A stretch of DNA of 64,000 nt from Streptomyces sp. NBC_01353 (GTDB taxonomy: Bacteria > Actinomycetota > Actinomycetes > Streptomycetales > Streptomycetaceae), in contig NZ_CP108352.1 of assembly GCF_036237275.1 (NCBI RefSeq), forward strand, positions 992,001 to 1,056,000. The letters run 5' to 3'. The position numbers were made by a program, and so were the translations under genes. The notes under the pieces were generated by a model. That model saw only the letters and a list, made by a program, of their open reading frames with translations, was not told the origin of the DNA and searched no databases. Below, in pieces: positions 4,464 to 33,881 of the stretch. Numbering within the stretch: position 1 is the first letter of the stretch; each line of letters opens with the position of its first letter.

Positions 4464-5657
4464 ATGCCCGCAGATCGCGCCGCGCGCGGCTGGCTTCCGG
4501 CGGCGGCCGCGCTCTTCGCCGCCGGGTGGGGCGCGAACCAGTTCACGCCGCTCGCGGTCGTGTACCGGACGCAGGAGCACTGGCCCTCCGTCCCGGTCGC
4601 CGCCATGTTCACCACCTACCTGCTGGGGCTCCTCCCCGGTCTGCTGCTCGGCGGCCCGTTCGCGGACCGGCTCGGCAGGCGGCGCGTGGTGCGGCATGCG
4701 CTGGTACTGTCCGCCGCCGCCAGCGCCCTACTGGCGGCGGCGGACATGTCCCAGAACGCCGTGTACGTCAGCCGTCTGGCCACCGGCGTCGCGGCCGGCG
4801 TCATCCTGACCGCCGGCACCCCATGGCTGGAAGAACTGTCCTCCGGTGCGAAGCGCCCGGGCGCCGGTGCCCGCCGTGCGACGTACGCCACGGGTGGCGG
4901 CTTCGCCGCCGGGGCGCTGACGGCGGGCGTCCTCGCCGAATGGCTGCCGCAGCCGATGGTGCTGCCCTGCCTCGTCCACTCCCTGCTGGCCCTGCTGGTG
5001 CTCGGCGCGACCACCACCGTGCCGGAGACCGCACGGCCCTCCCCCGTCGTCCCCTGGGAGCCGCGCATCGCCCGTCTGCGCCGGGCGGCCGTCACGCACC
5101 GCCGCTTCGTACGGGTGGTGCTGCCGGCGAGCCCGGCCGTCTTCTGCGCCGCCACGGTGGCCTATGTCGTGCTGCCGTCGTTGGTGGCCGACCGCGTTCC
5201 GGGTTACGCACCTGTGTTCAGCGGTCTGGTGACGGCGCTGACGCTCGTCGTGGGCATGGCCGTCCAGCCCCTGGCCGTCCGGCTGGACCACGCGCACAGC
5301 GCGCGGGCGACCCTTGTCTCGATGGTCACCGTGATCGCCGGACTTCTGGTGGGCGCCTGCGCCGTGTACGGGAACTCCGCGGGCCTGGTGCTGGCAGCGG
5401 CGGTCCTCCTGGGCGCCGGATACGGCCTCACCCTGGCCTCGGGGCTCATGGAGATCGAACGCCTGGCGACACCGAAGGCCGTGCCCTCGACGGCGTTCCT
5501 CCACCAGGGCGCCACCTACAGCGGCTTCCTGACGCCGCTGTTTCTCGCGGTGGCCGCCGGGGCCGCTCCGTACCCCGCCCTGCTGGCGGCCCTGGCGGCC
5601 GTGGGGCTGCTGTGCCTGGTGATCACCGCGCGGTTCAGCCGCCGGAGCCTTCCGTGA
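4464..5657 (+). CDS. MFS transporter in the formate dehydrogenase-like cluster
   Basis: A 397-residue major facilitator with about 12 transmembrane segments. It begins with the ATG at 4464 (MPADRAARGWLPAAAAL), 32 bases after the molybdoenzyme stop. The loop between helices 2 and 3 has the MFS signature as GPFADRLGRRRVVRHAL. The frame is open upstream, but that part overlaps the molybdoenzyme and is not real. Its place between the molybdoenzyme and fdhD suggests co-transcription and a role in moving the enzyme's substrate, product or an inhibitor. The cargo cannot be read from the sequence. Confidence 0.85.
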   Translation: MPADRAARGWLPAAAALFAAGWGANQFTPLAVVYRTQEHWPSVPVAAMFTTYLLGLLPGLLLGGPFADRLGRRRVVRHALVLSAAASALLAAADMSQNAVYVSRLATGVAAGVILTAGTPWLEELSSGAKRPGAGARRATYATGGGFAAGALTAGVLAEWLPQPMVLPCLVHSLLALLVLGATTTVPETARPSPVVPWEPRIARLRRAAVTHRRFVRVVLPASPAVFCAATVAYVVLPSLVADRVPGYAPVFSGLVTALTLVVGMAVQPLAVRLDHAHSARATLVSMVTVIAGLLVGACAVYGNSAGLVLAAAVLLGAGYGLTLASGLMEIERLATPKAVPSTAFLHQGATYSGFLTPLFLAVAAGAAPYPALLAALAAVGLLCLVITARFSRRSLP

Positions 5658-20143: not shown

Positions 20144-22198
20144 TCACGCCGTGCGCGCGGGCTCTTCACCGTTCCCACGCATGAGCCGCTGCCACAGGAA
20201 GGTGTGGACCAGGGCGTCGTTGTGGGCAGCCTGTTCGTTGTCGCCGGCACCCGCGTGGCCACCGCCGGTGTTCTCGTGGAGCAGGACCTCGTGGCCGAGT
20301 TCGCGCAGTCGCGCGGCAGCCTTGCGGGCATGGCCCGGGTGGACACGGTCGTCACGGGTGGAGGTCATCAGCAGGACCGGCGGGTAGACGCGGTCCTCGG
20401 CGAGCTGGTGGTAGGGCGAGATCGCACGGAGGTGAGGGCGATCGGCTTCGTCGTCCGGATTGCCGTACTCGGCGATCCAGGAAGCCCCGGCGAGGAGCTT
20501 GTGGAAGCGGAGCATGTCGAGGAGCGGCACCTGGGCGACGATCGCACCGAACAGCTCCGGGTGGCGGGTGAGCATCGCGCCCATGAGCAGACCGCCGTTG
20601 CTGCCCCCTGCCGCGCCGAGCATGGCGGGGGTGGTGATTCCCCGGGCGACGAGGTCCGCGGCGACCGCCGCGAAGTCCTCGAAGGCGCGCGGCCGATGGG
20701 CGCCGAGCGCGGCCTGGTGCCAGTCCGGTCCGTACTCACCGCCACCCCGGATGTTCGCGATCACGTACGTGCCCCCGCGCTCCAGCCACGCCCGGCCCTT
20801 CACCGCGCCGTAGTAGGGGGTGAGGGAGACCTCGAAGCCGCCGTAGCCGTACAGCAGGGTCGGTCCGGGGCCGGTGGCGGCGCGGTCGGGGCCGATGACG
20901 AAGTACGGCACCCGCGTCCCGTCCGGGGATGTGGCGAAGAACTGCTCGACCGTCAGGCCGGCCGTGGCGAAGCGGGCCGGAGCCTGCTTGAGGATCTCGG
21001 TGTCGGCGCCGATCTCTCCCCGGTACAGGGTGGAGGGTTGCAGGAACCCCGACACATCCAGGAAGTACTCGTCGGAGAGGTCGGGGTCCGTGTCCACGAC
21101 GGTGACCGCCGACAGCTCCGGAACGTCCGTGAGCGGCGTGCGCGCCCAGGCGCCTCCGGGGTCGGGGGTGAGGACTTCGATGCGGGTGCTGACGTCCCGC
21201 ATCGTCTCCAGGATCAGATGGTGACGGGTCCACGAGTGTCCCGCGAGGGCGGTCCGCTCGTCCGGGGTGAACAGCACCGCCGCCGTCCGGTCGCCCGTGA
21301 GGAAGGCCTCGAAGTCGAACGCCAGCAGGGAACCGGCCCGTTGCCCGAGCCAGTCGGACTTCAGGGTGACGATCAGATGCCGTCGGTGGACGTAGGAGTC
21401 GGCGTCGTCGGGGACGTCGATCTTCACGAGCGTGTCGTCGGCACCGAGGACGTACGTCTCGCCGCGGAAGAAGTCCAGGGAACGGGCGACGAAGTCCCGT
21501 TCGAATCCGGGCGTGGTGTCGCGCCAACCCGAGGCGGCCACATCGACCGGGTCCGCCTCGAAGACCGGCTCGGCCTCCTCCAGCGGCGTGCCGCGCCGCC
21601 ATCGGCGCACGGTGCGCGGATAGCCGGCGTCCGTCAGCGAGCCCGGTCCGAAGTCCGTGCCGATGAAGACGGTGTCGGCGTCGATCCACCCGATCCGCGT
21701 CTTCGCCTCGCCGACCCGGAAACCGCCGTCGACGAAGGTCCGCGTGGCGAGGTCGAACTCGCGGACCACCACGGCGTCCCCACCGTCGCGCGACAGACAC
21801 ACCAGGGCCCGGTCGTACTCGGGGTGGCGCACCCGCGCCCCCGCCCACAGCCACTTCTCGTCCTCCGCGGCGGCGAGCGCGTCGAGGTCGAGGACGTCTT
21901 CCCACTGGGGGGCGTCCTTGCGGTACTGCTCAAGGGTCGTACGCCGCCACACGCCACGTACATGCGTCGCGTCCCGCCAGAAGTTGTAGAGGAACGCTCC
22001 GCGACGCGCCGTGTAGGGGATGCGGTCCGAGGCGTCCAGCACCTCGCGCAGGCGCTTCTTCAGGGCGGTGAAGTCCGCGTCGGAGGCCAGTGCGGCCGCC
22101 GTCTCGGTGTTCCGCTCGGCCACCCACTCCAGAGCGGCCTCGCCCTCCACGTCTTCCAGCCACAGGTACGGGTCGTCGTCATCGCGTGGCGTCGTCAT
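20144..22198 (-). CDS. prolyl oligopeptidase family serine peptidase (S9A)
   Basis: A 684-residue S9A peptidase. Residues 1-400 form the beta-propeller that restricts access (DPYLWLEDVEGEAALEWVAE is the family's opening). The rest is the alpha/beta-hydrolase domain, with the nucleophile in GGSNGGLL near residue 534, the acid in TSTRDDRVHPGHA and the histidine in GGGHAGA. There is no signal peptide, so it probably acts in the cytoplasm on short peptides with proline. The ATG at 22196-22198 is chosen. It is probably transcribed alone; a 43-codon membrane peptide gene lies 10 bp upstream on the same strand. Confidence 0.92.
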   Translation of the reverse strand: MTTPRDDDDPYLWLEDVEGEAALEWVAERNTETAAALASDADFTALKKRLREVLDASDRIPYTARRGAFLYNFWRDATHVRGVWRRTTLEQYRKDAPQWEDVLDLDALAAAEDEKWLWAGARVRHPEYDRALVCLSRDGGDAVVVREFDLATRTFVDGGFRVGEAKTRIGWIDADTVFIGTDFGPGSLTDAGYPRTVRRWRRGTPLEEAEPVFEADPVDVAASGWRDTTPGFERDFVARSLDFFRGETYVLGADDTLVKIDVPDDADSYVHRRHLIVTLKSDWLGQRAGSLLAFDFEAFLTGDRTAAVLFTPDERTALAGHSWTRHHLILETMRDVSTRIEVLTPDPGGAWARTPLTDVPELSAVTVVDTDPDLSDEYFLDVSGFLQPSTLYRGEIGADTEILKQAPARFATAGLTVEQFFATSPDGTRVPYFVIGPDRAATGPGPTLLYGYGGFEVSLTPYYGAVKGRAWLERGGTYVIANIRGGGEYGPDWHQAALGAHRPRAFEDFAAVAADLVARGITTPAMLGAAGGSNGGLLMGAMLTRHPELFGAIVAQVPLLDMLRFHKLLAGASWIAEYGNPDDEADRPHLRAISPYHQLAEDRVYPPVLLMTSTRDDRVHPGHARKAAARLRELGHEVLLHENTGGGHAGAGDNEQAAHNDALVHTFLWQRLMRGNGEEPARTA

Positions 22199-22470: not shown

Positions 22471-23880
22471 GTGCTGATGCTCACTGACACCGCGTATGGG
22501 GATTCCCCGCTTTCCTTCTGGCTGCGCGTGCGCGAGTTCGCCGTGCCGCCCTCCATGATCGAGACTGCGACCACCCGCCGCTCTGCCGGGGACTGGGCAG
22601 GAGCCTGCGCCGCAGCCGGCGTGGACGTCGATCTCGACCTCAAGTCCGTGTCGCGTACCCATGGCCGGGAACTGGCCACCCGAGTACGGGCCGATCTCCG
22701 CCATCTGGCGCCCGACCTGCTGCGCTGGCATCTCCCGAGGGTCGCTCCCGACGGGCTGCTCCGCCCGGGTCTGACCATCGCCCTGGCCCGGTACGAAACC
22801 GCCGGACGGGACGGGACCGGCCCGGTCCACCTGGTGGTCCGGACTCCGCCGGCGTGGGCGGACGGCGGTCAGCGCATCAGCCTCGCGCTGTGGGACGGAT
22901 CGCACTCCGGGCCGAGCGCTCGCCGTCATCCGCACCCTCATCCGAACCGGCGGTTCCGACTCGACCTGCATCGCCACCTGTGGGACGCGCGCCGGACGGA
23001 CGAGCTCCGTGCCCGGTCCGGGTCCGCGCCGCCGTCGGAGGACGACCCTCCCCCGACGATCCCGGAGGCACGGGGGACGGTACCGCGGGACCTCCGCTGC
23101 GCCGTCGACCGATGGGCGGACGAGGCGGGGATCCTGCTCCACGCCGAGGGGCGGCCAACCGGCACCGTCAGCGTGCGCGTCGGGGCCCGGCAACGGCTGC
23201 TCCTGGACCTGGTGGCGGACCGGGACGGCCCCGGACCGCCCTCGATGCGGATCGCGGAGGCGCCCGCGGACGGTGTCGTCTCCGCGCTGCCGGTGCTGCC
23301 CGATGCGGCGACCTGGGTGCTGCCCGACCTCGAGCTGCTCCACAGCGGGCTGATCGAGGCCGACCGGCTGCACCCGCTGGTCGCGTCCGCACTCGTACCC
23401 GGTCTGCCACCGGCCGGTTCGCGGCCGCTGTCGGACCGGCCGGGGCAACCGCACATCGTGGAGTGCCGGGGAGCCCGACACCGGATCGGCCTGGTCGACG
23501 GGGTGCTGTCCCCGCTGGACCACGACCCGGCCGAGCTCCGCCGGGAGGAATTGCTGGCCGCGCTGTCCGGCACCCCACTCCCCTGCCTCCAGGCCGTCGA
23601 CCGGGCGCACCGGCGTCCGGACTGTCTCGACGGCGTCCGCGAACGCCTGCACCACGGCGACATCGCCGGCGCGCTGGCCGTCGTCGAGGGCCTGCTGGGC
23701 TCCGAGGCGCTGCTGCGCGACGGCGCCCTGCGGGACGAGCTGGAGGCAGCCGCCCAGCGGCGCCTGACCTACGGCCTGTTCAGGGCCGGCCTGATCGGCC
23801 CTGGACCCGGCCGTATGCGGCAGGGCCCAGGCCGACGCCGTGGCCACCGCGCGCGGCCGAGGCACGCCACCCGCCTCTGA
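22471..23880 (+). CDS. unknown protein upstream of a MoxR ATPase
   Basis: A 469-residue protein with no family I recognise. The start is GTG 22471 (MLMLTD), with ATG 22477 as alternative; AAGGTGAG precedes them. No signal or membrane segment is seen. The sequence is rich in Arg, Asp, Pro and Leu. A middle section contains a His/Arg/Pro-rich loop (ARRHPHPHPNRRFR), and the last 30 residues are strongly basic. It lies 60 bp ahead of the MoxR ATPase and with it and the HExxH/VWA protein forms a three-gene unit, so it may be that system's substrate-recognition or scaffold part (inference). Confidence 0.6.
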   Translation: MLMLTDTAYGDSPLSFWLRVREFAVPPSMIETATTRRSAGDWAGACAAAGVDVDLDLKSVSRTHGRELATRVRADLRHLAPDLLRWHLPRVAPDGLLRPGLTIALARYETAGRDGTGPVHLVVRTPPAWADGGQRISLALWDGSHSGPSARRHPHPHPNRRFRLDLHRHLWDARRTDELRARSGSAPPSEDDPPPTIPEARGTVPRDLRCAVDRWADEAGILLHAEGRPTGTVSVRVGARQRLLLDLVADRDGPGPPSMRIAEAPADGVVSALPVLPDAATWVLPDLELLHSGLIEADRLHPLVASALVPGLPPAGSRPLSDRPGQPHIVECRGARHRIGLVDGVLSPLDHDPAELRREELLAALSGTPLPCLQAVDRAHRRPDCLDGVRERLHHGDIAGALAVVEGLLGSEALLRDGALRDELEAAAQRRLTYGLFRAGLIGPGPGRMRQGPGRRRGHRARPRHATRL

Positions 23881-23940
23881 CCCGGGGCACCGCTCCCCGC
23901 ACTCCCTCTTTCTTCACGACGAGCCCTCAGGTGATGACCC

Positions 23941-25164
23941 ATGCCCTCACACGCCCCTTCCCAACTCGACGTCGCCGGCGACCTGCTGACCCTTCTGCGC
24001 GACACCACCACCGAGCCGCGCCCCGACCCCCAGCTGGAGGCCCTCACCCTGGCCGTCGCCGCCGACCTGCCCGTGCTCCTGTGGGGTGAGCCGGGGATCG
24101 GCAAGACCGCGGCCCTCACGCAGCTCGCGGAGACCCTGGACCTGCCGCTGACCACCGTGATCGCCAGCGTGCACGAGCCGTCGGACTTCGCCGGCCTGCC
24201 GATCATCGGCGACGATCCGGCGGAACACGGTGTCCCGATGGCTCCGCCGGACTGGGCCGTACGACTCGTACGGGCCGGCCGAGGGCTGCTGTTCCTCGAC
24301 GAACTGTCCACCGCCCCGCCGGCCGTGCAGGCCGCCCTGCTCCGCCTCGTCCTCGAACGGCGCATCGGCGCCCTCCGACTGCCGCCCGGGGTACGCATCG
24401 TGGCCGCCGCCAATCCGCGGGCCTCGGCGGCCGACGGCTGGGAGCTGAGCCCGCCCCTGGCCAACCGGTTCGTTCACCTTCAGTGGGTCCACGACCACGA
24501 GGTCGTCGTCCGCGGGCTCGGGGGGACCTGGCCCCGGGCGACGCTGCCCCGGCTCGACGCGGCGAAGATGACGGAGGCCGTGGCCTTCGCCCGCCGCGCC
24601 GTGTGCGGGCTGCTCGCCGCCCGTCCCAAGCTCGTCCACCAGCTGCCCGGCAACGAGGCCCGCAGGGGCGGACCCTGGCCGTCGCCGCGCAGCTGGGAGA
24701 TGACCCTGCATCTGATCGCCTTCGCGACCGCGGCCGGCTCCTCCCGGGACGTGCTCTCCATGCTGGTCAGGGGAACCGTCGGCGACGGTCCGGGCCTTGA
24801 ACTGCTTGCGAGCCTGGACCGGCTGGACCTACCGGATCCCGAGACGCTGCTCGCCGACCCGGAGAGTGCCGTCCTCCCCGAGCGCGGAGATCTCCGCCAG
24901 GCCGTGCTCGACGGCGTGGTCGCCGCGGTCCGCACGCGCCCGGAGAAGACCCGCTGGGACGCGGCGTGGGCGCTCCTGGTGCGGGCGATGGAGACCGGAG
25001 CCCCTGACCTGGTGGTCGTTCCCGCGACCACTCTCGCCTCACTCCGCCAGCAGGAGTGGGACGTACCGGAGTCGATCGAACGGCTCGCCGGAGCGGTGTC
25101 CCTGTCCCGGCGCGCCGACCGGGCCGGGGCCCGGGCCGCGCTCGCCACGCAGGCCGGCCGTTGA
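23941..25164 (+). CDS. MoxR-family AAA+ ATPase
   Basis: A 407-residue MoxR-type AAA+ ATPase. Walker A is GEPGIGKT at residues 49-56, Walker B is GLLFLDEL near residue 120, and sensor 1 is in AAANPR. The family is known for chaperone-like activation or insertion of metal centres, working with a von Willebrand A (VWA) protein. That partner follows at once: its TTG start overlaps this gene's TGA (TTGA), so the two are translationally coupled. The start is the ATG at 23941. The target is unknown. Confidence 0.88.
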   Translation: MPSHAPSQLDVAGDLLTLLRDTTTEPRPDPQLEALTLAVAADLPVLLWGEPGIGKTAALTQLAETLDLPLTTVIASVHEPSDFAGLPIIGDDPAEHGVPMAPPDWAVRLVRAGRGLLFLDELSTAPPAVQAALLRLVLERRIGALRLPPGVRIVAAANPRASAADGWELSPPLANRFVHLQWVHDHEVVVRGLGGTWPRATLPRLDAAKMTEAVAFARRAVCGLLAARPKLVHQLPGNEARRGGPWPSPRSWEMTLHLIAFATAAGSSRDVLSMLVRGTVGDGPGLELLASLDRLDLPDPETLLADPESAVLPERGDLRQAVLDGVVAAVRTRPEKTRWDAAWALLVRAMETGAPDLVVVPATTLASLRQQEWDVPESIERLAGAVSLSRRADRAGARAALATQAGR

Positions 25165-26411
25165 GCGCGGGCGCACCGGGGCCGGAGAAGGCCCTGGACC
25201 GCGACAAGCTGTTCGCCGCCCGGCTCCAGGCCGCGCGGGCGCGGCCCTATCTGGCGACGGCGCTGTTCGCCCTGCACACCGTGGAGTCGACGCGGGTGCC
25301 GACGATGGCCGTCGACCGGTACTGGCGGTGCTACGTCTCACCGGCGTTCGTCGACCGGACCCCGGTGGAGGAACTGGCCGGGGTATGGGTCCACGAGGTC
25401 TCGCATCTGCTGCGCGACCATCACGGGCGCGGTGACCGGGTCGCGCGGGCGCGCGGACTGACGGGCCCCGGGGAGCGGCTGCGGATGAACATCGCCGCGG
25501 ACTGCGAGATCAACGACGACGTGTTCGGCGACGGTCTGGTCCGGCCCGAAGGCGCCGTCATGCCTGAGACGTTGGGGCTCGATCCCGGACAGCTCATGGA
25601 GGACTATCTGCGCCAGTTCTCCCTCGGGGCGCGGACGCTCGAGCATGCCTGGCTGGACTGCGGCAGCGGCGCCGACGGGCTCGACAGGGAGTGGGAACTC
25701 GGGCCGGACGGTGCGCACGGGCTCAGTGCGCAGGAGCGGGACGCCGTCCGGTTCCGGGTGGCGCAAGGCATCACCGGCCGTCCGGGAAACGCCTCGAAGG
25801 CGTGGCAGCGGTGGGCGGAGGAGGCGTTCCATCCTCCACAACCGTGGCGAGACCTGCTGGGGGCGGCCATCCGCTCGGCGGCTTCCGCCTCCGGCGCCGG
25901 CGAGGACTACACGTACGGCCGGCCGGCCCGGCGGTCGGCCGGGCTGCCGGGCGTGGTGCTGCCGAGCCTGCGACGGATGCCACCCCGGGTGTCCGTGGTC
26001 ATCGACACGTCCGCCTCCGTCAGCGACGCCGAGCTGGGCGGTGCGCTCCTCGAGGTCGCCGCCATCTCCCGTGCCGTGGGCGGCCGTCGGGACCTCGTCA
26101 GCGTGCTGCCGTGCGACGCGTCGGCCCAGTTCGTGCACCCGCTGTGCAGCGCCGAGGGAATCCCGCTGATGGGCGGTGGGGGTACGGATCTGCGTACGGG
26201 CTTCGCCAGGGCGCTCAAGGCGCGGCCGGCGCCCGATGTGGTCGTGGTCCTGACCGATGGTCAGACACCGTGGCCGGACACCCGGCCTCCGTGCCGGACG
26301 GTGGTGGGGCTGTTCCCGAGGCGGTTCTCGAACCGATCGTGGGACGAGGACGACCCCGACTACGTCCCCGACTCGCCGCCCGACTGGGCACGTGTCGTCG
26401 ACATCGGGTAG
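25161..26411 (+). CDS. VWA-like, metallopeptidase-like DUF2201 protein
   Basis: A 416-residue protein of the DUF2201 type. The N-terminal half carries a zinc-peptidase-like HEVSHLLRDHH (HExxH near residue 77) and MNIAADCEINDD, typical of metallopeptidase domains. The C-terminal half is a VWA-like domain with a MIDAS-type DTSAS near residue 280 and GGGGTDLRTG and LTDGQTPW loops. The start is TTG 25161, overlapping the ATPase stop. Partnership with the MoxR ATPase is inferred from overlap and from known MoxR-VWA pairs. Whether the HExxH site cuts anything is not known. Confidence 0.85.
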   Translation: MSAGAPGPEKALDRDKLFAARLQAARARPYLATALFALHTVESTRVPTMAVDRYWRCYVSPAFVDRTPVEELAGVWVHEVSHLLRDHHGRGDRVARARGLTGPGERLRMNIAADCEINDDVFGDGLVRPEGAVMPETLGLDPGQLMEDYLRQFSLGARTLEHAWLDCGSGADGLDREWELGPDGAHGLSAQERDAVRFRVAQGITGRPGNASKAWQRWAEEAFHPPQPWRDLLGAAIRSAASASGAGEDYTYGRPARRSAGLPGVVLPSLRRMPPRVSVVIDTSASVSDAELGGALLEVAAISRAVGGRRDLVSVLPCDASAQFVHPLCSAEGIPLMGGGGTDLRTGFARALKARPAPDVVVVLTDGQTPWPDTRPPCRTVVGLFPRRFSNRSWDEDDPDYVPDSPPDWARVVDIG

Positions 26412-26840
26412 GCATCAGGGCCACCGGGAGCTCGGGGCGGGTATCGCAGTGGGCGCACCCTCTCCATCAAGTCATCGCACCTGTCGAAAACCTGCACATC
26501 GTGCGCGTGACCTGGATGCGCCCCCTTCATTGCTCCTCGATTCGACCGATGGATCCCGTCCGTGTGGTGCGTCTCTGTCCGTTTGATACCCCGCACGCGA
26601 CGGGTCGCCCGGATCTGTTACTCGTTCCTGCGGAGAAGGTGTCACCGTTCGGTGAAATTAGCTGCACGGCTGCTGTCCGAGGTACACAACCACGTACGTG
26701 AGGGCGTCAACAGAATTGGCCGGGTAGCCCGTTCGCATGCTTGGATCACCGCGCTGCGGCAGTCGTGAAGTACGGCCGATCTTCGGTCTGCTGAATGGCC
26801 GCAGGAATGGAATCCCCCCAACAAATGAAGGGTGCGCATC
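26412..26840. promoter_or_regulatory. 429-bp upstream region of the exported-peptide gene
   Basis: No gene is supported here. Two short perfect palindromes stand out: TCACCG-TT-CGGTGA at 26642-26655 and CACGTACGTG at 26691-26700, both 140-200 bp ahead of the peptide start. They may be operators for regulated expression. The DNA is less GC-rich between about 26510 and 26830, as at a strong promoter. The functions are inferred. Confidence 0.35.
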
Positions 26841-27092
26841 ATGCGTAACGACCTTGAGACCCGCGAGATCGCCGACACCGAGCTGGACGCCGTTTCCGGT
26901 GGTCTCGTCAGCATCTCCGGCGGCGTCGCCGGCGCTGCGACCAGCGACGTCACCAACGTCCTGGGCGCCGTCACCTCCCTCCAGACCGTTCAGGGTGTCG
27001 AGGGCCTCGTCGCCGGCGTCCCCGGCCTGGCCTCCAACGTCACCGGCCTTTCGGTGAACACCTCCGCCGTCACCGGTCTCGCCGGTCTCTGA
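26841..27092 (+). CDS. double-glycine leader peptide, probable exported RiPP-like precursor
   Basis: An 83-residue precursor. Residues 1-21 (MRNDLETREIADTELDAVSGG) are a classic double-glycine leader (ELDxVSGG), the substrate for C39 peptidases. The predicted 62-residue core has no Cys, no aromatic, no Lys and no Arg, with only one Asp and one Glu. It is built from Val, Gly, Ala, Thr, Ser and Leu, with recurring VT(G/N) and GL steps. The ATG at 26841 sits 8 bases after GAAGGG; a GTG at 26832 is less likely. Codons are strongly those of highly expressed genes. Export genes follow. No modifying enzyme is near. It could be a bacteriocin or a surface/structural peptide; the charge-poor core argues against a typical cationic bacteriocin. 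Confidence 0.8.
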   Translation: MRNDLETREIADTELDAVSGGLVSISGGVAGAATSDVTNVLGAVTSLQTVQGVEGLVAGVPGLASNVTGLSVNTSAVTGLAGL

Positions 27093-27104
27093 GCGGAATA
27101 TCGC

Positions 27105-27143
27105 CCATGAACCCCGGAACCTGCCCGGTTCCGGGGTTCATGG
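27105..27143 (+). terminator. 17-bp hairpin between precursor and export genes
   Basis: Perfect 17-bp arms (27105-27121 and 27127-27143) flank a five-base loop, 12 bases after the precursor stop. There is no U-tract, as is common in high-GC actinomycetes. The position suggests partial termination or mRNA stabilisation, so that the peptide is made in excess over its transporters. Confidence 0.75.
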
Positions 27144-27189
27144 CCTCCCCCGTGCCGAACCGAAACAAATGCAGTTGAAGGAATAGTCC

Positions 27190-27996
27190 GTGCAGTTCCG
27201 CCAAAAGGCACTTTCCAAGCTGCAATCGCCCGAAGAACTCGACGTCCCCGTACGCTTCGCGCGCCCGCAGGGCCGCCTCGTACTGGTCGTCACGGTCGTC
27301 GTCATGGCGATCGCGAGTTTCTGGGCGCTCACCGGCACGGTGTCGTCCAAGCAGAGCGCGCCCGGCATCCTCACCCGCGCCGAGGGCAGTTACCTGCTGC
27401 AGAGCCCCGTCGCCGGACAGGTGACCGACGTCCTCGTCGAGGAGGGCACGTCCGTGTCCGCCGGGACGGCGCTCCTCACCGTCCGTACGGAGCAGGGCGA
27501 CCGGCCCGTGCGCGCGGTCGCCGACGGCCGGGTGACCACGCTGTTCGCCAGGATGGGTTCGGTCGTCACGACCGGCGCCGACGTGGCGACGGTGGAGCGG
27601 GTGACGCGTCCCGACGATCCGCTGGTGGCAATGCTCTACATGCCTGGCGACAGCGCGTCGACGATCCAGGTGGGAGCCTCGGTCGACCTGAGCGTCCAGT
27701 CCGCCCCCCGAAGCCGGTTCGGAGTGCTGCGCGGCCAGGTGAAGGCGGTGGGCCGCGCGCCCCAGACGCAGGCGCAGATCGGCAACTTCCTCGGCGACAG
27801 CGGGCTGGCCGCACAGTTCTCCCGGCAGGGCAACCCGATCGCGGTGCTCGTGACGCTGGAGCGCTCCGCCGCCACCAAGTCCGGCTACACCTGGTCCTCC
27901 ACGGACGGACCCCCGAACGCCATCGACTCCGGTACGCCGGTCACCGGCGCCGTCCATCTGTCCGCGCAGCGCCCCGTCGACTGGCTGCTGCCGTGA
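27190..27996 (+). CDS. HlyD-like NHLP-type secretion protein
   Basis: A 268-residue membrane-fusion/adaptor protein. One N-terminal membrane span (about residues 35-55, LVLVVTVVVMAIASFWALTG) is followed by a biotinyl-lipoyl-like hairpin (AEGSYLLQSPVAGQVTDVLV, then VADGRVTTLFARMGSVV). Members with this layout are the secretion proteins of NHLP (nitrile-hydratase leader peptide) bacteriocin export systems. The start is GTG 27190 after GAAGGA. Its GTGA overlap with the next gene shows tight coupling to the C39 exporter. It probably links the ABC exporters to the outer face of the cell. Confidence 0.82.
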   Translation: MQFRQKALSKLQSPEELDVPVRFARPQGRLVLVVTVVVMAIASFWALTGTVSSKQSAPGILTRAEGSYLLQSPVAGQVTDVLVEEGTSVSAGTALLTVRTEQGDRPVRAVADGRVTTLFARMGSVVTTGADVATVERVTRPDDPLVAMLYMPGDSASTIQVGASVDLSVQSAPRSRFGVLRGQVKAVGRAPQTQAQIGNFLGDSGLAAQFSRQGNPIAVLVTLERSAATKSGYTWSSTDGPPNAIDSGTPVTGAVHLSAQRPVDWLLP

Positions 27997-30269
27997 GCGC
28001 CCGCAGGGAGGCGTCCCAGGAGTCCGCCGGGAGCCGCGCCCGCTCGCGGTCGCGCTCCTCGCCCCGCCGGCTCCCGCCCGCCGAGCGCCGTCGCCGTCCC
28101 GCCCCCAAGGGCAGGAAGCCCCGGACCGTCCGTACCCCCACCGTGCTCCAGATGGAGGCCGTGGAGTGCGGCGCCGCCGCCCTCGCCATGGTGCTCGGCC
28201 ACTTCGCTCGCTTCGTGCCCCTGGAGGAGCTGCGCATCGCCTGCGGCGTCTCCCGCGACGGCTCCCGGGCGAGCAACCTCCTGAAGGCGGCGCGCGGTTA
28301 CGGGCTCCAGGCCAAGGGGATGCAGATGGACCTGGCCGCGCTGGCCGAGGTCAGCGCCCCGGCGATCCTCTTCTGGGAGTTCAACCACTACGTCGTCTAC
28401 GACGGCATGGGCCGACGCTTCGGCCGCAGGGGCGTGTACGTCAACGACCCCGGCAAGGGCCGCCGGTTCGTCCCCATGGACGAGTTCGACACCAGCTTCA
28501 CCGGCATCGTGCTCACCTTCGAGCCCGGCGCCGGCTTCCGCCGCGGCGGGCGCAAGCCGGGCGTCATGAGCGCCATGCCCGCCCGCCTGCGCGGCACGGC
28601 GGGCACGATGGCCGCCGCCGTGATCTCCAGCCTCCTGCTGGTGGCCGTCGGCGCGTGGGTGCCCGCCCTGAGCCGTACGTACATCGACATGTTCCTCATC
28701 GGGAGCCAGACCTCGCTGCTGGGCGTGCTCTTCGTGGCGATGGCGACCACCCTCGTCCTCACCGCGACGCTCACCGCGGTGCAGCAGGCCAATCTGCTGC
28801 GCGGGCGGATCATCTCCTCGACCCTGGGCAGCGCCCGCTTCCTCCGGCACCTGCTCAGACTTCCCATCAGCTTCTACTCCCAGCGCAACCCGGCCGACCT
28901 GGTGCAGCGCCTGCAGTCCAACGACGCGGTCGCCGAGACCCTCGCACGCGACCTGGCCGCGGCGGGCGTGGACGCCGTCGTCGTGTTGCTCTACGCGGTG
29001 CTGCTGTGGACGTACGACCCGCAGCTCACGGTCGTCGGCGTGCTGATCGCCCTGCTCAACGTCGTGGCCATGCGGGTCGTGATCCACCTGCGGGCCACCA
29101 ACACCCAGAAGCTGCGGGCCGAGAGCGCCCGGCTGACCAACACCTCGTACAGCGGTCTCCAGCTCATCGAGACGATGAAGGCCACCGGCGGCGAGAACGG
29201 CTTCTTCCGCCGCTGGGCGGGGCAGCACGCGATCACGCTCGACGTCCAGCAGCGGCTCGGTATGCCCAGCGCGTGGCTGGCGGTCGTCGCCCCCACCCTG
29301 GCCGCGCTCAACAGCGCGCTGATCCTGATGATCGGCGGTCTGCGGGCGGTGGAGGGCCATCTCTCCGTCGGTCTGCTCGTCGCCTTCCAGGCCCTGGTGA
29401 CCAGCTTCACCGCGCCGATCACCCGTCTCAACGGCGTGGCCGGCCGCATCCAGGACTTCGCCGCCGACGTCGCCCGCCTCAAGGACGTGGAGAACTTCCC
29501 CGTCGATCCGCTCTACACACGGCGCGAGCCGGCCGCCCGCACCCGCCGGCTCAAGGGTCATGTGGAGCTGGACGACATCACCTTCGGCTACAGCCCGCTG
29601 GACGCCCCGCTGTTGAAGGGCTTCTCGCTCTCGGTCGGCCCCGGTCAGCAGGTCGCGCTGGTCGGCGGCTCCGGCAGCGGCAAGTCCACCGTCTCCCGGC
29701 TGATATCCGGCCTCTACGCCCCCTGGGAGGGCGCCATCCGCATCGACGGGATGCGGCTGGAGGACATCCCGCGCAGCGCGCTCGCCGCCTCCGTCTCCTT
29801 CGTGGACCAGGACGTCTTCCTCTTCGAGGGCACCGTCCGCGACAACATCGCGCTGTGGGACCCCTCCGTCCCGGACGAGGCCGTGGTCGCCGCCCTGGAG
29901 GACGCCGCCGTGTACGACGTGGTCGCCCGGCGTCCCGGCGGCATCCACAGCCGCGTGGAGCAGGACGGCCGCAACTTCTCCGGCGGCCAGCGCCAGCGTC
30001 TGGAGATCGCCAGGGCGCTCGTGCGCCGGCCGAGCATCATGGTCCTCGACGAGGTGACCAGCGCCCTCGACGCGGCGACCGAGCAGCTCATCATCGACAA
30101 CCTGCGGCGCCGCGGCTGCGCCTGCGTGGTCATCGCGCACCGGCTGAGCACGGTGCGCGACAGCGACGAGATCGTCGTGCTCGACCGCGGCACGGTCGTG
30201 GAGCGCGGACGGCACGAGTATCTGGTCGCGGCGCAGGGCCCGTACGCCGAACTGGTCAAGGAGCACTGA
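27993..30269 (+). CDS. NHLP-type ABC exporter with C39 peptidase domain
   Basis: A 758-residue peptidase/permease/ATPase. The N-terminal C39 cysteine-peptidase domain has the catalytic residues C59 (QMEAVECGAA), H132 (FNHYVVYDG) and D152 (NDPGKG). It is expected to cut the precursor after Gly-Gly on the cytoplasmic side. The transmembrane domain (about residues 200-480) is followed by an ABC ATPase with Walker A GGSGSGKST near residue 557, signature FSGGQRQ and Walker B MVLDEVTSALD. The GTG start overlaps the HlyD stop. With its complete active site, this is the processing exporter for the peptide at 26841. Confidence 0.92.
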   Translation: MSARREASQESAGSRARSRSRSSPRRLPPAERRRRPAPKGRKPRTVRTPTVLQMEAVECGAAALAMVLGHFARFVPLEELRIACGVSRDGSRASNLLKAARGYGLQAKGMQMDLAALAEVSAPAILFWEFNHYVVYDGMGRRFGRRGVYVNDPGKGRRFVPMDEFDTSFTGIVLTFEPGAGFRRGGRKPGVMSAMPARLRGTAGTMAAAVISSLLLVAVGAWVPALSRTYIDMFLIGSQTSLLGVLFVAMATTLVLTATLTAVQQANLLRGRIISSTLGSARFLRHLLRLPISFYSQRNPADLVQRLQSNDAVAETLARDLAAAGVDAVVVLLYAVLLWTYDPQLTVVGVLIALLNVVAMRVVIHLRATNTQKLRAESARLTNTSYSGLQLIETMKATGGENGFFRRWAGQHAITLDVQQRLGMPSAWLAVVAPTLAALNSALILMIGGLRAVEGHLSVGLLVAFQALVTSFTAPITRLNGVAGRIQDFAADVARLKDVENFPVDPLYTRREPAARTRRLKGHVELDDITFGYSPLDAPLLKGFSLSVGPGQQVALVGGSGSGKSTVSRLISGLYAPWEGAIRIDGMRLEDIPRSALAASVSFVDQDVFLFEGTVRDNIALWDPSVPDEAVVAALEDAAVYDVVARRPGGIHSRVEQDGRNFSGGQRQRLEIARALVRRPSIMVLDEVTSALDAATEQLIIDNLRRRGCACVVIAHRLSTVRDSDEIVVLDRGTVVERGRHEYLVAAQGPYAELVKEH

Positions 30270-30270
30270 G

Positions 30271-33200
30271 GTGACGTTCCCTCACCAGCCCACGGTCCAC
30301 GACCCCCACGCCGCGGTGCACGGCCACGGCCAGGACGCGGTGGCCGGCGGCCCCGACGCGACAGCCACCGGCCGGCAACCGGCGGTCGTCACCGACGGGC
30401 AGCACGCCGGCGTCGTGCACGACCCGGTCGTCGCGGCGCTCGGCGGGCTGGGTTCCGCGGTCGACTGCACCGGGATGCGCAGCATCTCCCTCGAAGGCCC
30501 GCACGTGCTGTGGCTCCTCGTCGACGGCGCCATGGACCTGTTCGCCGTCGACAGCGCCCAGCTCGGCCCCTGGCACTTCCTGGGCCGACTGGAGGCGGGC
30601 ACCCTGCTGCTCGGTCCGGTCGAGGGCCCCGAGCACACCCTGATCGGCCGCCCCCTGCAGGGCTGCCTGCTGCGCCGTGTCGAGCTGAGGGAGCTGTCGT
30701 TCCCGGCCGGCCAGTGGGCGGCGAATCAGTGGTCTGGCGAGCAGATCCAGTACGGCGCCGTCGAGCCCCGGTTGAGCCCGTTGGAGCACGCCTTCGCGCT
30801 CGGTGTCGGCCGTGGTCTGCGCGTGCTCTACCAGGCACCGCTGGGCGGCCCCGCCACCCCCACCGGCCAGGTCGGGGCGGACGACGACATCCTCTGGATG
30901 CAGATCGCCCCCGGCAGCGTGCAGTACGGCGCGGCGTACGAGGGATACGGAGGGGACGGAGGGTACGGAGGGGATACTGTCGGCACCCTCCTCGTCGACC
31001 AGGCGATGTGGCACGGCATGGTCGACCAGCAGTACCGGCTGCTGTACGCCCTGGACACCTGGATCGAGCAGCTCGAGCGCGCCCACGAGGACCGTACGGC
31101 TGCAGGTATCCAGGCCGGCGAGGCCGCCCGTACGCAGGCGGACCAGGCGCTCCTCGACTCCATCGGCCGCTCCGGCGGCGCCTCCGGCAAGGGCGCGCGC
31201 GGTCGCGCCGGCGACGACGCGACCTACGCCGTCTGCCGGCTGGTCGCCGACGAAGCACGTATCACCCTGTCCGAACCCACCGAGGCGGGCGCCGTCTCCG
31301 CCCGTCTCGACCCGGTCGAGCGCATCGCGCTCGCCTCGCGGATCCGCACCCGTGCCATCAAGCTCAGCGGCAAGTGGTGGCAGGAGTACGGCGGACCCCT
31401 GGTCGGATACCGCGAGGAGGACGCGACCCCGGTCGCCCTGCTCTGGCGGCGCGGCCGGTACGAGGCCGTCGACCCGGCCACCGGCGAGCGGGAGCGCATC
31501 GGCAGGGACAACGAGGAGTACTTCGAAGCGCGCGCCGTCATGCTCTACCGCCCCTTGCCCGACCGGCCGCTGGGCCTGCCGTCGCTCCTGCGCTTCAGTG
31601 TGCGGGGCACCCGCACGGAGCTGCGGAGCCTTCTGCTGGGCGGGCTCGTCGCGGTCGGCCTGGGGTCGCTGGTGCCCATCGCCACCGGCAAGGTGCTCGG
31701 CGAGTACGTACCCAACGCCGAGAACGGCCTGATCGTGCAGACCGCGCTGGCGATCCTCGCGACCAGCGTCGTGTCCGCCGCGTTCATGCTGATGCAGAAC
31801 GTCTCGATCCTGCGGATGGAGGGCCGGATCGAGGCCACCTTGCAGCCCGCGGTGTGGGACCGGCTGCTGCGGCTGCCGACGAGGTTCTTCGCGGGCCGTT
31901 CCACCGGTGAACTGGCCAGTGCGGCGATGGGCATCAGCGCCATCCGCCGGGTGGTCTCCGGCATCGGTCCGGTCGTCGTCCAGGCGGGCACCGTCGGCAC
32001 GATGAACCTGGTGCTGCTGCTCGTCTACAGCGTGCCGCTCGCGCTGGCCGCGCTCGCCATGCTGCTCGTCATCGCTGCCGTGTTCCTGAGCCTGGGGTTG
32101 TGGCAGTTGCGCTACCAGCGGCAGCTGATCAAGATCGGCAACAAGCTCAACAACCAGGCGTTCCAGACCTTGCGCGGCCTGCCCAAGCTGCGGGTGGCCG
32201 CGGCCGAGAGCTTCGCCTACGCCGCGTGGGCCGACGAGTTCGCCCGCACCCGCGAGCTGCAGCAGAAGGTCGGCCGCCTGAAGAACGTCGTCGCCGTCCT
32301 CAACGCGGTCTGTCTGCCGCTGTGCACCCTCGTGATGTTCATGCTGCTGGCCGGACCGGCCCGGGGTTCCATGTCCGCGAGCGAGTTCCTCACCTTCAGC
32401 ACCGCCGTGACGATGATGCTGTCCTCGGTCACGCAGCTGACCGGCGCGCTCCTGTCGGCCGCCGCCGTGCAGCCGATGTTCGAGCAGGTCAAGCCGGTCT
32501 TCCGGGAGACCCCCGAGGTACGCGGCTCCAGCACCCCGCCGGGCGAGCTGAGCGGTGCCATGGAGGCGCAGAACCTCTCCTACCGGTACTCCGACGACGG
32601 CCCCCTCGTCCTCGACGAAGTCAGTTTCCAGGTACGGCCGGGCGAGTTCGTCGCCGTCGTCGGGGCGAGCGGCTGCGGCAAGTCGACGCTCCTGCGGCTG
32701 CTCATCGGCTTCGACAAGCCGATGTCCGGCAGCGTGCGGTACGACGGTCAGGACCTGGCGGCACTCGACCAGGCGGCCGTGCGCCGCCAGTGCGGGGTCG
32801 TCCTGCAGAACGCCCAGCCCTTCTCGGGCTCGATCCTCGACTGCATCTGCGGCACGGAGCCGTTCCCGCTCGAGGACGTCTGGGCGGCGGCCGCGATGGC
32901 GGGGCTGGCCGAGGACATCAAGGCCATGCCGATGGGGATGCACACCATGCTGTCCGACGGCGGGGGCACCATCTCGGGCGGGCAGCGTCAGCGGCTGATG
33001 ATCGCCCAGGCCCTCATCCGCAGGCCCCGCGTCCTCTTCTTCGACGAGGCCACCAGCGCGCTGGACAACGAGGCCCAGCGGGTGGTGATCGAGTCCACCC
33101 GCGCCCTGAAAGCGACCCGTGTCGTGATCGCCCACCGGCTGTCCACGATCATGGACGCCGACCGTGTGATCGCCATGGCGGACGGCCGGATCGTCCAGCA

Positions 33201-33273
33201 GGGCACCCCCGCCGAACTGCTCGCCGACACGGGCGGCCTGTTCCACGAGCTGGTCCGCCGCCAGCTGCGCTGA
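30271..33273 (+). CDS. second NHLP-type ABC exporter, permease/ATPase without peptidase
   Basis: A 1000-residue permease-ATPase. The first 430 residues carry no C39 domain. They start with a His/Ala-rich head and a cupin/cyclic-nucleotide-like segment (GPHVLWLLVDGAMDLFAVD), a feature of the second NHLP exporter subunit. Near residue 230 there is a short Tyr-Gly-Gly-Asp repeat. Transmembrane helices follow (about 445-730), then an ABC ATPase with Walker A GASGCGKST, signature ISGGQRQRL and Walker B VLFFDEATSALD. The GTG at 30271 is one base after the previous stop. It probably pairs with the C39 exporter as a heterodimer. Confidence 0.9.
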   Translation: MTFPHQPTVHDPHAAVHGHGQDAVAGGPDATATGRQPAVVTDGQHAGVVHDPVVAALGGLGSAVDCTGMRSISLEGPHVLWLLVDGAMDLFAVDSAQLGPWHFLGRLEAGTLLLGPVEGPEHTLIGRPLQGCLLRRVELRELSFPAGQWAANQWSGEQIQYGAVEPRLSPLEHAFALGVGRGLRVLYQAPLGGPATPTGQVGADDDILWMQIAPGSVQYGAAYEGYGGDGGYGGDTVGTLLVDQAMWHGMVDQQYRLLYALDTWIEQLERAHEDRTAAGIQAGEAARTQADQALLDSIGRSGGASGKGARGRAGDDATYAVCRLVADEARITLSEPTEAGAVSARLDPVERIALASRIRTRAIKLSGKWWQEYGGPLVGYREEDATPVALLWRRGRYEAVDPATGERERIGRDNEEYFEARAVMLYRPLPDRPLGLPSLLRFSVRGTRTELRSLLLGGLVAVGLGSLVPIATGKVLGEYVPNAENGLIVQTALAILATSVVSAAFMLMQNVSILRMEGRIEATLQPAVWDRLLRLPTRFFAGRSTGELASAAMGISAIRRVVSGIGPVVVQAGTVGTMNLVLLLVYSVPLALAALAMLLVIAAVFLSLGLWQLRYQRQLIKIGNKLNNQAFQTLRGLPKLRVAAAESFAYAAWADEFARTRELQQKVGRLKNVVAVLNAVCLPLCTLVMFMLLAGPARGSMSASEFLTFSTAVTMMLSSVTQLTGALLSAAAVQPMFEQVKPVFRETPEVRGSSTPPGELSGAMEAQNLSYRYSDDGPLVLDEVSFQVRPGEFVAVVGASGCGKSTLLRLLIGFDKPMSGSVRYDGQDLAALDQAAVRRQCGVVLQNAQPFSGSILDCICGTEPFPLEDVWAAAAMAGLAEDIKAMPMGMHTMLSDGGGTISGGQRQRLMIAQALIRRPRVLFFDEATSALDNEAQRVVIESTRALKATRVVIAHRLSTIMDADRVIAMADGRIVQQGTPAELLADTGGLFHELVRRQLR

Positions 33274-33392
33274 CCGGGCCCGGCCCTGGGGCCGCCCGCG
33301 CCCTCGGCCGGTGACCGGGGGCGTACGACATGCCACTCCCCAAATTCGGACATATCGTTCGTTTCATTGGCCTGTTCCCCCTGGAGGCACGA

Positions 33393-33881
33393 GTGTCTGA
33401 GCTCATCGTCATCGGATACGACGACCCGGAAGTGGCCCAGAACGCCTTCGCGACGGTCCAGGACCTCCAGCGCGACTACGTGGTCCATCTGAACGGCCTC
33501 GCGGTGGTCTCCGTGGACGCGGACGGCGATACGCACGTGGACACGACGAGCCGCATCGTGGGCGCTTCGGTCACGTCCGGAGCGGTGTGGGGCGCGATCT
33601 TCGGCCTGCTGTTCCTGCTGCCCGGGGTCGGACTGCTGACCGGCGCGGCGGTCGGCGGGCTGATCGGCAAGCTCAGCAAGTCCGGTCTCGACGACCAGTT
33701 CCGGCAGCAGGTGCAGAACCTGCTCAAGCCGGGTTCGGCGGCCGTGGTGATCATGTCGTCGAAGCTCACGGACGACAAGTTCACGGTGGCCATGCAGCCG
33801 CACGGCGGCACGGTCCTGAAGACCTCGCTGAGCGACGCGGACGAGAAGGAACTGGCCGAGCAGCTCGCCGGCCCCCAGTAG
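33393..33881 (+). CDS. DUF1269 membrane-associated protein
   Basis: A 162-residue protein of the DUF1269 family: the start of the domain (ELIVIGYDDPEVAQNAFATV), then a Gly-rich hydrophobic hairpin (VTSGAVWGAIFGLLFLLPGV to AVGGLIGKL), and a C-terminal part with SAAVVIMSSKLTDDKF. No biochemical function is known. GTG 33393 follows GGAGG at ideal spacing; an in-frame ATG at 33330 would add a run with no family match. It lies 119 bp after the exporter and is probably unrelated to it. Confidence 0.85.
   Translation: MSELIVIGYDDPEVAQNAFATVQDLQRDYVVHLNGLAVVSVDADGDTHVDTTSRIVGASVTSGAVWGAIFGLLFLLPGVGLLTGAAVGGLIGKLSKSGLDDQFRQQVQNLLKPGSAAVVIMSSKLTDDKFTVAMQPHGGTVLKTSLSDADEKELAEQLAGPQ

Follow-up and report, generated by a model that had tools for sequence, protein, structure and literature searches.

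The closest described counterpart of the locus analysed here is SCO0753-0756 of Streptomyces coelicolor, in which a peptide gene is followed by a secretion system in the same four-gene order and which is conserved in many Streptomyces (PMC6629963). In the accessible parts of that report (Arroyo-Perez et al. 2019), SCO0753 is a peptide of 77 residues, 57% hydrophobic and with zero cysteines. It was the top over-expressed gene in the dispersed-growth Sco5282-D125G kinase strain, and together with its exporter operon it was nearly silent in the Sco5282 null mutant. The authors already proposed that the neighbouring system exports SCO0753 and that the peptide may have its effect at the hyphal surface. 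They also pointed out that cysteines, absent from SCO0753, are required in lantibiotics such as SapB. According to the text available, increased expression of SCO0753 was also seen in an aor1 mutant (PMC5733086), and the gene has so far been filed as a bacteriocin-cluster or lanthipeptide-like gene (PMC6629963, PMC5733086). Here, a four-gene cassette of this known but poorly understood kind was analysed in a stretch of 64,000 nucleotides from Streptomyces sp. NBC_01353 (contig NZ_CP108352.1, positions 992,001 to 1,056,000; genome G000, 8.57 Mb). This stretch is referred to as the window and its coordinates are used throughout. No known function was found for the cassette peptide.

The locus was interpreted as a SCO0753-0756-type peptide-export operon whose unmodified core would be exported and pack helix-to-helix at the hyphal envelope, altering surface or aggregation properties. 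As a whole, this interpretation is given an even chance of being right. Within it, the processing and export of an unmodified peptide are likely, and the role at the hyphal surface is a best guess.

The predicted precursor has 83 residues, comprising a 21-residue double-glycine leader that ends in DAVSGG and a core of 62 residues. Two residues of the core are acidic, and Cys, Lys, Arg and aromatic residues are all absent from it. This translation matched the leader and core composition, including the two charged residues, given in an earlier account made from the letters alone (the sequence-only reading). An HlyD-type protein, a C39-peptidase ATP-binding cassette (ABC) exporter and a second ABC exporter are encoded next to it, each above its NCBIfam cut-off, and together form an NHLP-type export system. 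The Peptidase_C39 domain covers residues 48-179 of the first exporter, which matches solved bacteriocin transporters (e.g. 4ry2) and ComA over its full length. Its catalytic residues C59, H132 and D152 are intact, at the positions named in the sequence-only reading, and the neighbouring HlyD-like protein and second NHLP-type exporter were likewise confirmed with TIGR03794 and TIGR03797; in the second exporter the TIGR03797 match starts at residue 315. The cassette start, which that reading had placed at 26642, was corrected to 26841, with a promoter block at 26624-26755. A single exporter above the TIGR03796 cut-off and a single precursor by the family profile (E <= 1e-3) were found in the whole genome. 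The PADLOC hits obtained for the exporters resemble generic ABC matches and were discarded.

For comparison with relatives, the best 80 of 570 confirmed named exporter loci were taken, giving 81 loci with the window. The 80 are nearly all from Streptomyces, the exceptions being Actinacidiphila (L065), '[Kitasatospora] papulosa' (L067) and Streptantibioticus (L096). In 77 of the 81 loci, hlyD is directly preceded by a double-glycine precursor, and in the remaining four (L066, L073, L076, L095) the contig ends at the precursor position. The frame at 26841 is thus conserved in relatives, a check that the sequence-only reading had itself proposed. The 77 cassette cores are 44-62 residues long with 1-4 acidic residues; Cys is absent from every one, Lys and Arg from 66 and aromatic residues from 71. 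Two leader subtypes were recognized, MRND... (the window, 21 residues) and MNxTPQ..., and the subtype switches once on the exporter tree of the 77, whereas shuffled labels gave 22 switches on average; for this count, L096 was assigned by hand to the MNxTPQ subtype.

In 199 Streptomyces genomes, the precursor profile matched 145 (E <= 1e-3) and the exporter was found in 145. Both were present in 141, the precursor only in 4, the exporter only in 4 and neither in 50 (Fisher p 2.6e-37, a statistic that ignores phylogeny), so the cassette is kept by about 70% of the sampled Streptomyces species. A class-wide sample gave matches at E <= 1e-5 in 30 of 394 genomes, all of the same genus. On a 1.16-Mb linear plasmid of Streptomyces chartreusis NBC_00851 (L223), an exporter with 83% identity was accompanied by a cassette-type precursor. 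On an S. cadmiisoli plasmid, an exporter 58% identical to that of the window has upstream of it a 138-residue reading (L224:6386-6799) that combines a double-glycine motif with a short tail containing Cys.

Of the 38 cassettes compared, 36 have a conserved block of 135-137 nt upstream of the precursor; in L048 it measures 113 nt and in L060 146 nt. The block contains a repeat (TGTGAAGAAG..TG, GGTGAA....CTGCACG) and a TTGG...CGTGCTTTGATC element. A TTGG-N16-24-TGCTT-type pattern was present in 58 of 77 upstream regions against 2.2 in shuffles. The direct-repeat regular expression alone was weak, matching 15 of the 77 and missing the window copy, and an alignment model was used instead. This model, R1, is based on sequence only and was built from 36 cassette promoters, including that of the window, with the length outliers L048 and L060 left out. 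Both outliers match R1 as held-out loci. In all, the model matches 41 of 45 held-out cassette loci, which are relatives of the training ones, and the four misses are cut by contig ends. A search of 0.93 Mb gave nothing beyond cassette loci at E <= 0.01. At E <= 1e-3, R1 matched 136 of the 199 genomes, corresponding to 135 of the 141 cassette genomes plus G119, and none of the four exporter-only genomes. At this threshold the cassette itself is the sole match in the window genome; a second, weak match lies in the window at 4873-4958 (E 0.1). No canonical sigma-70 promoter was found in 26400-33500, and nothing in 26400-27300 exceeded the Rfam gathering scores. The window has a strong hairpin between the precursor and hlyD, and in 69 of 77 loci the 90 nt following the precursor gave z < -2 against mononucleotide shuffles.

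At least 150 R1 matches were obtained in the genus, and all 150 listed are upstream of a double-glycine precursor. The main precursor follows at a distance of 51-141 nt in 130 of them, and in 126 of these the exporter is within 2.5 kb downstream. In the other four (G002, G081, G119, G163) it is not there, in three because it is listed on another contig. The remaining 20 matches are dispersed, with no exporter within 2.5 kb downstream of any. For 18 of these, a fixed regular expression, whose background was 7 of 2000 random 1-kb flank pieces, recognized a double-glycine precursor downstream; for the other two, which fall outside that expression, the precursor was recognized by eye. No exporter was found in 15 dispersed-precursor stretches of 12-14 kb each (L156-L170). 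R1 matched eight of these stretches (L159, weakly at 5e-4, L162-L166, L168 and L169) and gave no match at E 1 in L156-L158, L160, L161, L167 and L170; some R1-negative dispersed precursors show a GTGAAGAAG half-site by eye. The precursors of L156-L170 have few core types, for example GYGAAVNVGDVVG... and ...SDADVLAQVDAVKNEVLG..., and the neighbour genes examined in L157, L163 and L165 were mutually unrelated. One Cys is present in the precursor core of L240, one of the 20 dispersed matches, and of L219, another R1 match, and Cys freedom therefore holds for the 77 cassette precursors and not for every dispersed one.

This promoter-and-leader regulon in relatives is the new element of the analysis; no report of the promoter block or of dispersed precursors was found in the open-licence literature searched. 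The sequence-only reading had mentioned neither the described S. coelicolor counterpart nor the promoter block, the hairpin and the dispersed precursors of relatives. In some relatives, additional dispersed precursors carry this promoter and leader, so that more than one peptide is probably exported by the cassette system there; in the window genome, only the cassette was found. It is tentatively proposed, with somewhat less than even confidence, that Streptomyces has a regulon extending across the genus and made up of secreted, unmodified helical peptides, in which one NHLP-type cassette and, in some species, dispersed precursors with other cores share the 136-nt block and leader and are co-released to remodel the hyphal surface. 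The window would hold the cassette of that regulon. The shared promoter also provides a simple means to list the peptides that the exporter may carry.

With respect to modification, a Pfam scan of the 12 neighbouring window open reading frames (ORFs) revealed no maturase family. Likewise, tblastn found no LanM in the 80 loci, 20 further regions or the 64-kb window, and the control, L155, was detected. The queries were the longest ORFs of L152-L155; the one from L154 aligned to L155 on the opposite strand and may have been taken from the wrong strand. Both results agree with the sequence-only reading, in which no maturase lay nearby. A linked maturase is detectable where one exists, as two distant NHLP exporters of the same genus adjoin such enzymes: L172, which has a weak R1 match (E 0.013), adjoins a YcaO protein and a nitroreductase-family protein (oxidase), and L174 a nitroreductase/ThcOx-like protein. 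A YcaO match was also seen near L175, a more distant NHLP exporter of the same genus.

The alternative that the peptide is modified by a maturase encoded elsewhere in the genome was judged very improbable. Exporters of this kind have been linked with modified peptides (PMC3140520, in the part available), the exporter of L172 has its YcaO protein and oxidase, the L_biotic_typeA model gave weak matches in 3 of 47 relatives, and the window genome has a single YcaO match, although it is 1.93 Mb from the cassette and shows no precursor linkage. Against this, all 77 cassette cores lack Cys, and PF13575 (LanM) had no match in the window genome at E <= 1e-10, other synthetase classes not being searched. 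Genome-wide, with thresholds of E <= 1e-10 for LanM and E <= 1e-20 for YcaO and with counts that ignore phylogeny, LanM was found in 53 of the 199 genomes, namely in 31 of 141 with the cassette vs 22 of 58 others (p 0.03). YcaO was found in 136, namely in 88 of 141 vs 48 of 58 (p 0.007). Both are thus rarer with the cassette, and 44 of the 141 cassette genomes carry neither. A remote LanM or YcaO enzyme is not supported on these grounds; the survey was confined to these two families and did not extend to radical-SAM, ATP-grasp or other maturases. The suggestion in the sequence-only reading of a bacteriocin with a remote maturase accordingly found no support for LanM or YcaO. The window precursor combines neither feature of a lanthipeptide, a core Cys and a LanM-type synthetase, and the evidence speaks against that class. 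It also lacks the linked YcaO expected of an azol(in)e peptide.

The unmodified, hydrophobic exported peptide, which the same reading had also put forward, is supported by the 77 Cys-free cores, by the under-representation of LanM and YcaO and by the flanks, where no ORF family of at least 70 aa recurs in more than 16 of the 81 loci. The flank search used unfiltered ORFs of at least 70 aa and left out 400 nt upstream, and in three loci the excluded span was about 12 kb. No conserved immunity gene was found among these ORFs or among gene calls down to 60 aa, although shorter or locus-divergent ones could escape, and the 60-aa calls are incomplete (hlyD was called in 57 loci vs 79 by tblastn).

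The main rival to a role at the hyphal surface is an unmodified bacteriocin, an exported Gly-zipper peptide that would insert into competitor membranes as is thought for class II microcins and two-peptide bacteriocins. The pairing of a C39 exporter with a membrane fusion protein follows class II microcin export logic (PMC9746304, as far as its text was available), the cores have GxxxG spacing and evolve fast, and some relatives weakly match the Bacteriocin_IIc, CTB-family and class IIb models. A general physiological role fits better with the presence of the cassette in 141 of 199 species under one conserved promoter, and with the link to a dispersed-growth mutant and the composition-conserving change of the cores; the lack of a recurrent flank family also counts against a bacteriocin. 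This explanation was considered unlikely, and it retains that much weight because the flank search could miss immunity genes shorter than 70 aa, within the 400 nt upstream or divergent between loci. The sequence-only reading had stressed that the core shows no cationic bacteriocin pattern; the lack of Lys and Arg was upheld, but the exclusion of a bacteriocin does not follow from it.

The pattern within the core was analysed in 17 representative cores below 60% identity. The correlation of hydrophobic residues was positive at lags 3, 4 and 7 but negative at lags 1, 2 and 5, and that of glycine peaked at lag 4 (z 7.5), which is GxxxG spacing; as the representatives are homologous, the z values overstate independence. 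The helix band, with a period of 3.5 residues, was significant in part of the set, and the beta band reached p < 0.05 in none of the 17 (lowest value 0.06, in L045). In the window core, lags 2, 3, 5 and 7 gave p values of 0.004, 0.03, 0.007 and 0.012, and lag 4 was not significant. The trend was weaker in ten dispersed cores, where z was 3.2 at lag 7 and 2.8 for glycine at lag 4 and where hydrophobic residues gave no significant correlation at lags 3 and 4. A beta or amyloid pattern was therefore rejected, although weak matches to two models of the amyloid chaperone FapA, in 3 and 2 of 47 relatives, point the other way. The earlier proposal of a self-assembling surface peptide thus finds no support in its beta or amyloid sense from the sequence period, given hydrophobic recurrence every 3-4 and 7 residues and GxxxG, and its surface part is kept as a best guess.

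The core composition seems to have been kept during divergence. Among 249 related pairs with 2495 core differences, residues that are charged or aromatic or are Cys, Met, His or Gln take part in 369 of the differences (14.8%) and in 30.7-36.1% of random one-step changes, a rough and non-independent comparison. The median dN/dS was about 0.9 in the core vs 0.4 in the leader, values that are unreliable at this GC content of third codon positions and are no proof. Profile matches of the precursor family to Pfam and NCBIfam were weak and scattered in several directions (bacteriocins, lantibiotics and FapA chaperones): Bacteriocin_IIc in 3 of 47 relatives (best E 3e-4), CTB-family bacteriocin in 12 of 47 (best 0.0024) and two class IIb models with one relative each. 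The window precursor itself had no Pfam family at E 0.1, hence no PF03777 chaplin domain, and no match to leader_NHLP (TIGR03793) at E 0.1, which matched 1 of 47 relatives at E 0.041. Nothing among solved structures fell below E 0.4 for the precursor profile.

Several observations weigh against the hyphal-surface interpretation. The helix-like period was drawn from homologous sequences and only 9 of 17 reached p < 0.05, and the window core alone was borderline in the helix band (p 0.052). Six of the 141 cassette genomes are without an R1 match at E 1e-3. Fast core evolution would also fit an antagonistic bacteriocin. In the accessible text of PMC6629963, lowered matB, cslA and glxA expression is also offered as an explanation of dispersed growth.

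On the interpretation preferred here, that of an exported peptide acting at the hyphal surface, a dedicated regulator would turn on the conserved promoter. Literature and repeat layout suggest that this is perhaps the orthologue of Sco5283, which is listed as OmpR-type in the part of PMC9739842 available, a type that fits the tandem repeats and would bind the block. Another named system, GarR/GarS (PMC11043171), yielded nothing usable in the text available. The precursor would be made in excess over the exporter, with the hairpin limiting read-through and so setting the precursor:exporter stoichiometry. The leader would then dock on the C39 domain and be cleaved off after Gly-Gly, and the ABC exporters and HlyD protein would carry the unmodified 62-residue core across the membrane. 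For the C39 family, leader docking, Gly-Gly cleavage and export are established. The product, hydrophobic, almost uncharged, Gly/Val-rich and with a 3.5-residue GxxxG period, would probably pack helix-to-helix at or in the hyphal envelope and could change hyphal surface or aggregation properties. If the peptides do coat or loosen hyphae, this could explain part of the dispersed growth of the Sco5282 mutant and would be of interest for fermentation.

A further alternative, that the peptide is a secreted signal or pheromone of its controlling two-component system, was regarded as improbable. Its export by a C39 system resembles that of the ComA pheromone by homology, and SCO0753 is under two-component control in S. 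coelicolor (PMC6629963, available text). However, a length of 44-62 residues and a fast-changing sequence of conserved composition are unlike a receptor-matched signal, and the Sco5282 kinase is said in the same text to have an extracellular loop of only four residues.

Table 1. Features of the cassette and its upstream region, in window coordinates.
Feature	Position	Strand	Evidence or remark
Conserved upstream block, operator-like repeat region and promoter-like region	26624..26755	+	model R1, 69.9 bits
Downstream half of direct-repeat operator-like element (GGTGAAATTAGCTGCACG)	26651..26668	+	putative; regulator proposed
Promoter-like element TTGG ... TGCTTGGATC	26714..26747	+	TTGG-N16-24-TGCTT-type pattern
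Ribosome-binding site GAAGGG	26827..26832	+	8 nt 5' of ATG; also in 77-sequence consensus
Precursor peptide gene	26841..27092	+	leader codons 26841-26903, core codons 26904-27089, then stop
Strong RNA hairpin between precursor and hlyD, no T tail	27105..27143	+	z -5.3 for 27093-27160
HlyD-type secretion protein	27190..27996	+	TIGR03794, 165.7 bits (cut-off 156.2)
Peptidase-containing ABC exporter	27993..30269	+	TIGR03796, 1011 bits (cut-off 853.3)
Second NHLP-type ABC exporter, without peptidase domain	30271..33273	+	TIGR03797, 877 bits (cut-off 709.4)

Directly upstream of these features, on the same strand (22471-26411), are a 469-aa ORF without a Pfam match, an AAA (MoxR-like) ATPase and a DUF2201 metallopeptidase/VWA-like protein, which probably form an unrelated operon. 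A prolyl oligopeptidase family protein is encoded on the opposite strand at 20144-22198. Directly downstream of the cassette (33330-33881, + strand) is a DUF1269 protein with weak glycine-zipper matches, which is probably outside the cassette, since no family in the flanks is shared by more than 16 of the 81 loci.

Small secreted peptides that are hydrophobic or surface-active, such as the chaplins and SapB, are known from Streptomyces hyphae. The window precursor differs from the chaplins in having no Pfam match, and the same genome has nine PF03777 chaplin matches elsewhere. The cassette resembles NHLP/NHLM bacteriocin export in its three transport proteins, all above their model cut-offs, but its leader is short and without a match to the NHLP leader model, and no maturase was found near it. 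With class II microcins it shares a double-glycine leader, a C39 exporter, an HlyD-type fusion protein and an apparently unmodified core; it differs in its Gram-positive host, its second ABC exporter and the lack of a conserved immunity gene among flank ORFs of at least 70 aa. The closest likeness is to SCO0753-0756, compared by the text of the paper and not by sequence, in the four-gene order, the Cys-free hydrophobic peptide and the HlyD protein with two ABC exporters. One relative (L092), read from an upstream Met, has 77 aa with 57% hydrophobic residues if Gly is counted and 44% if it is not. The window precursor differs from SCO0753 in its greater length (83 aa vs 77) and in its leader, which is of a second subtype (MRND...), and the promoter block, the hairpin, the helix-like period and the dispersed precursors add to the account of SCO0753-0756 given in the available text of PMC6629963.

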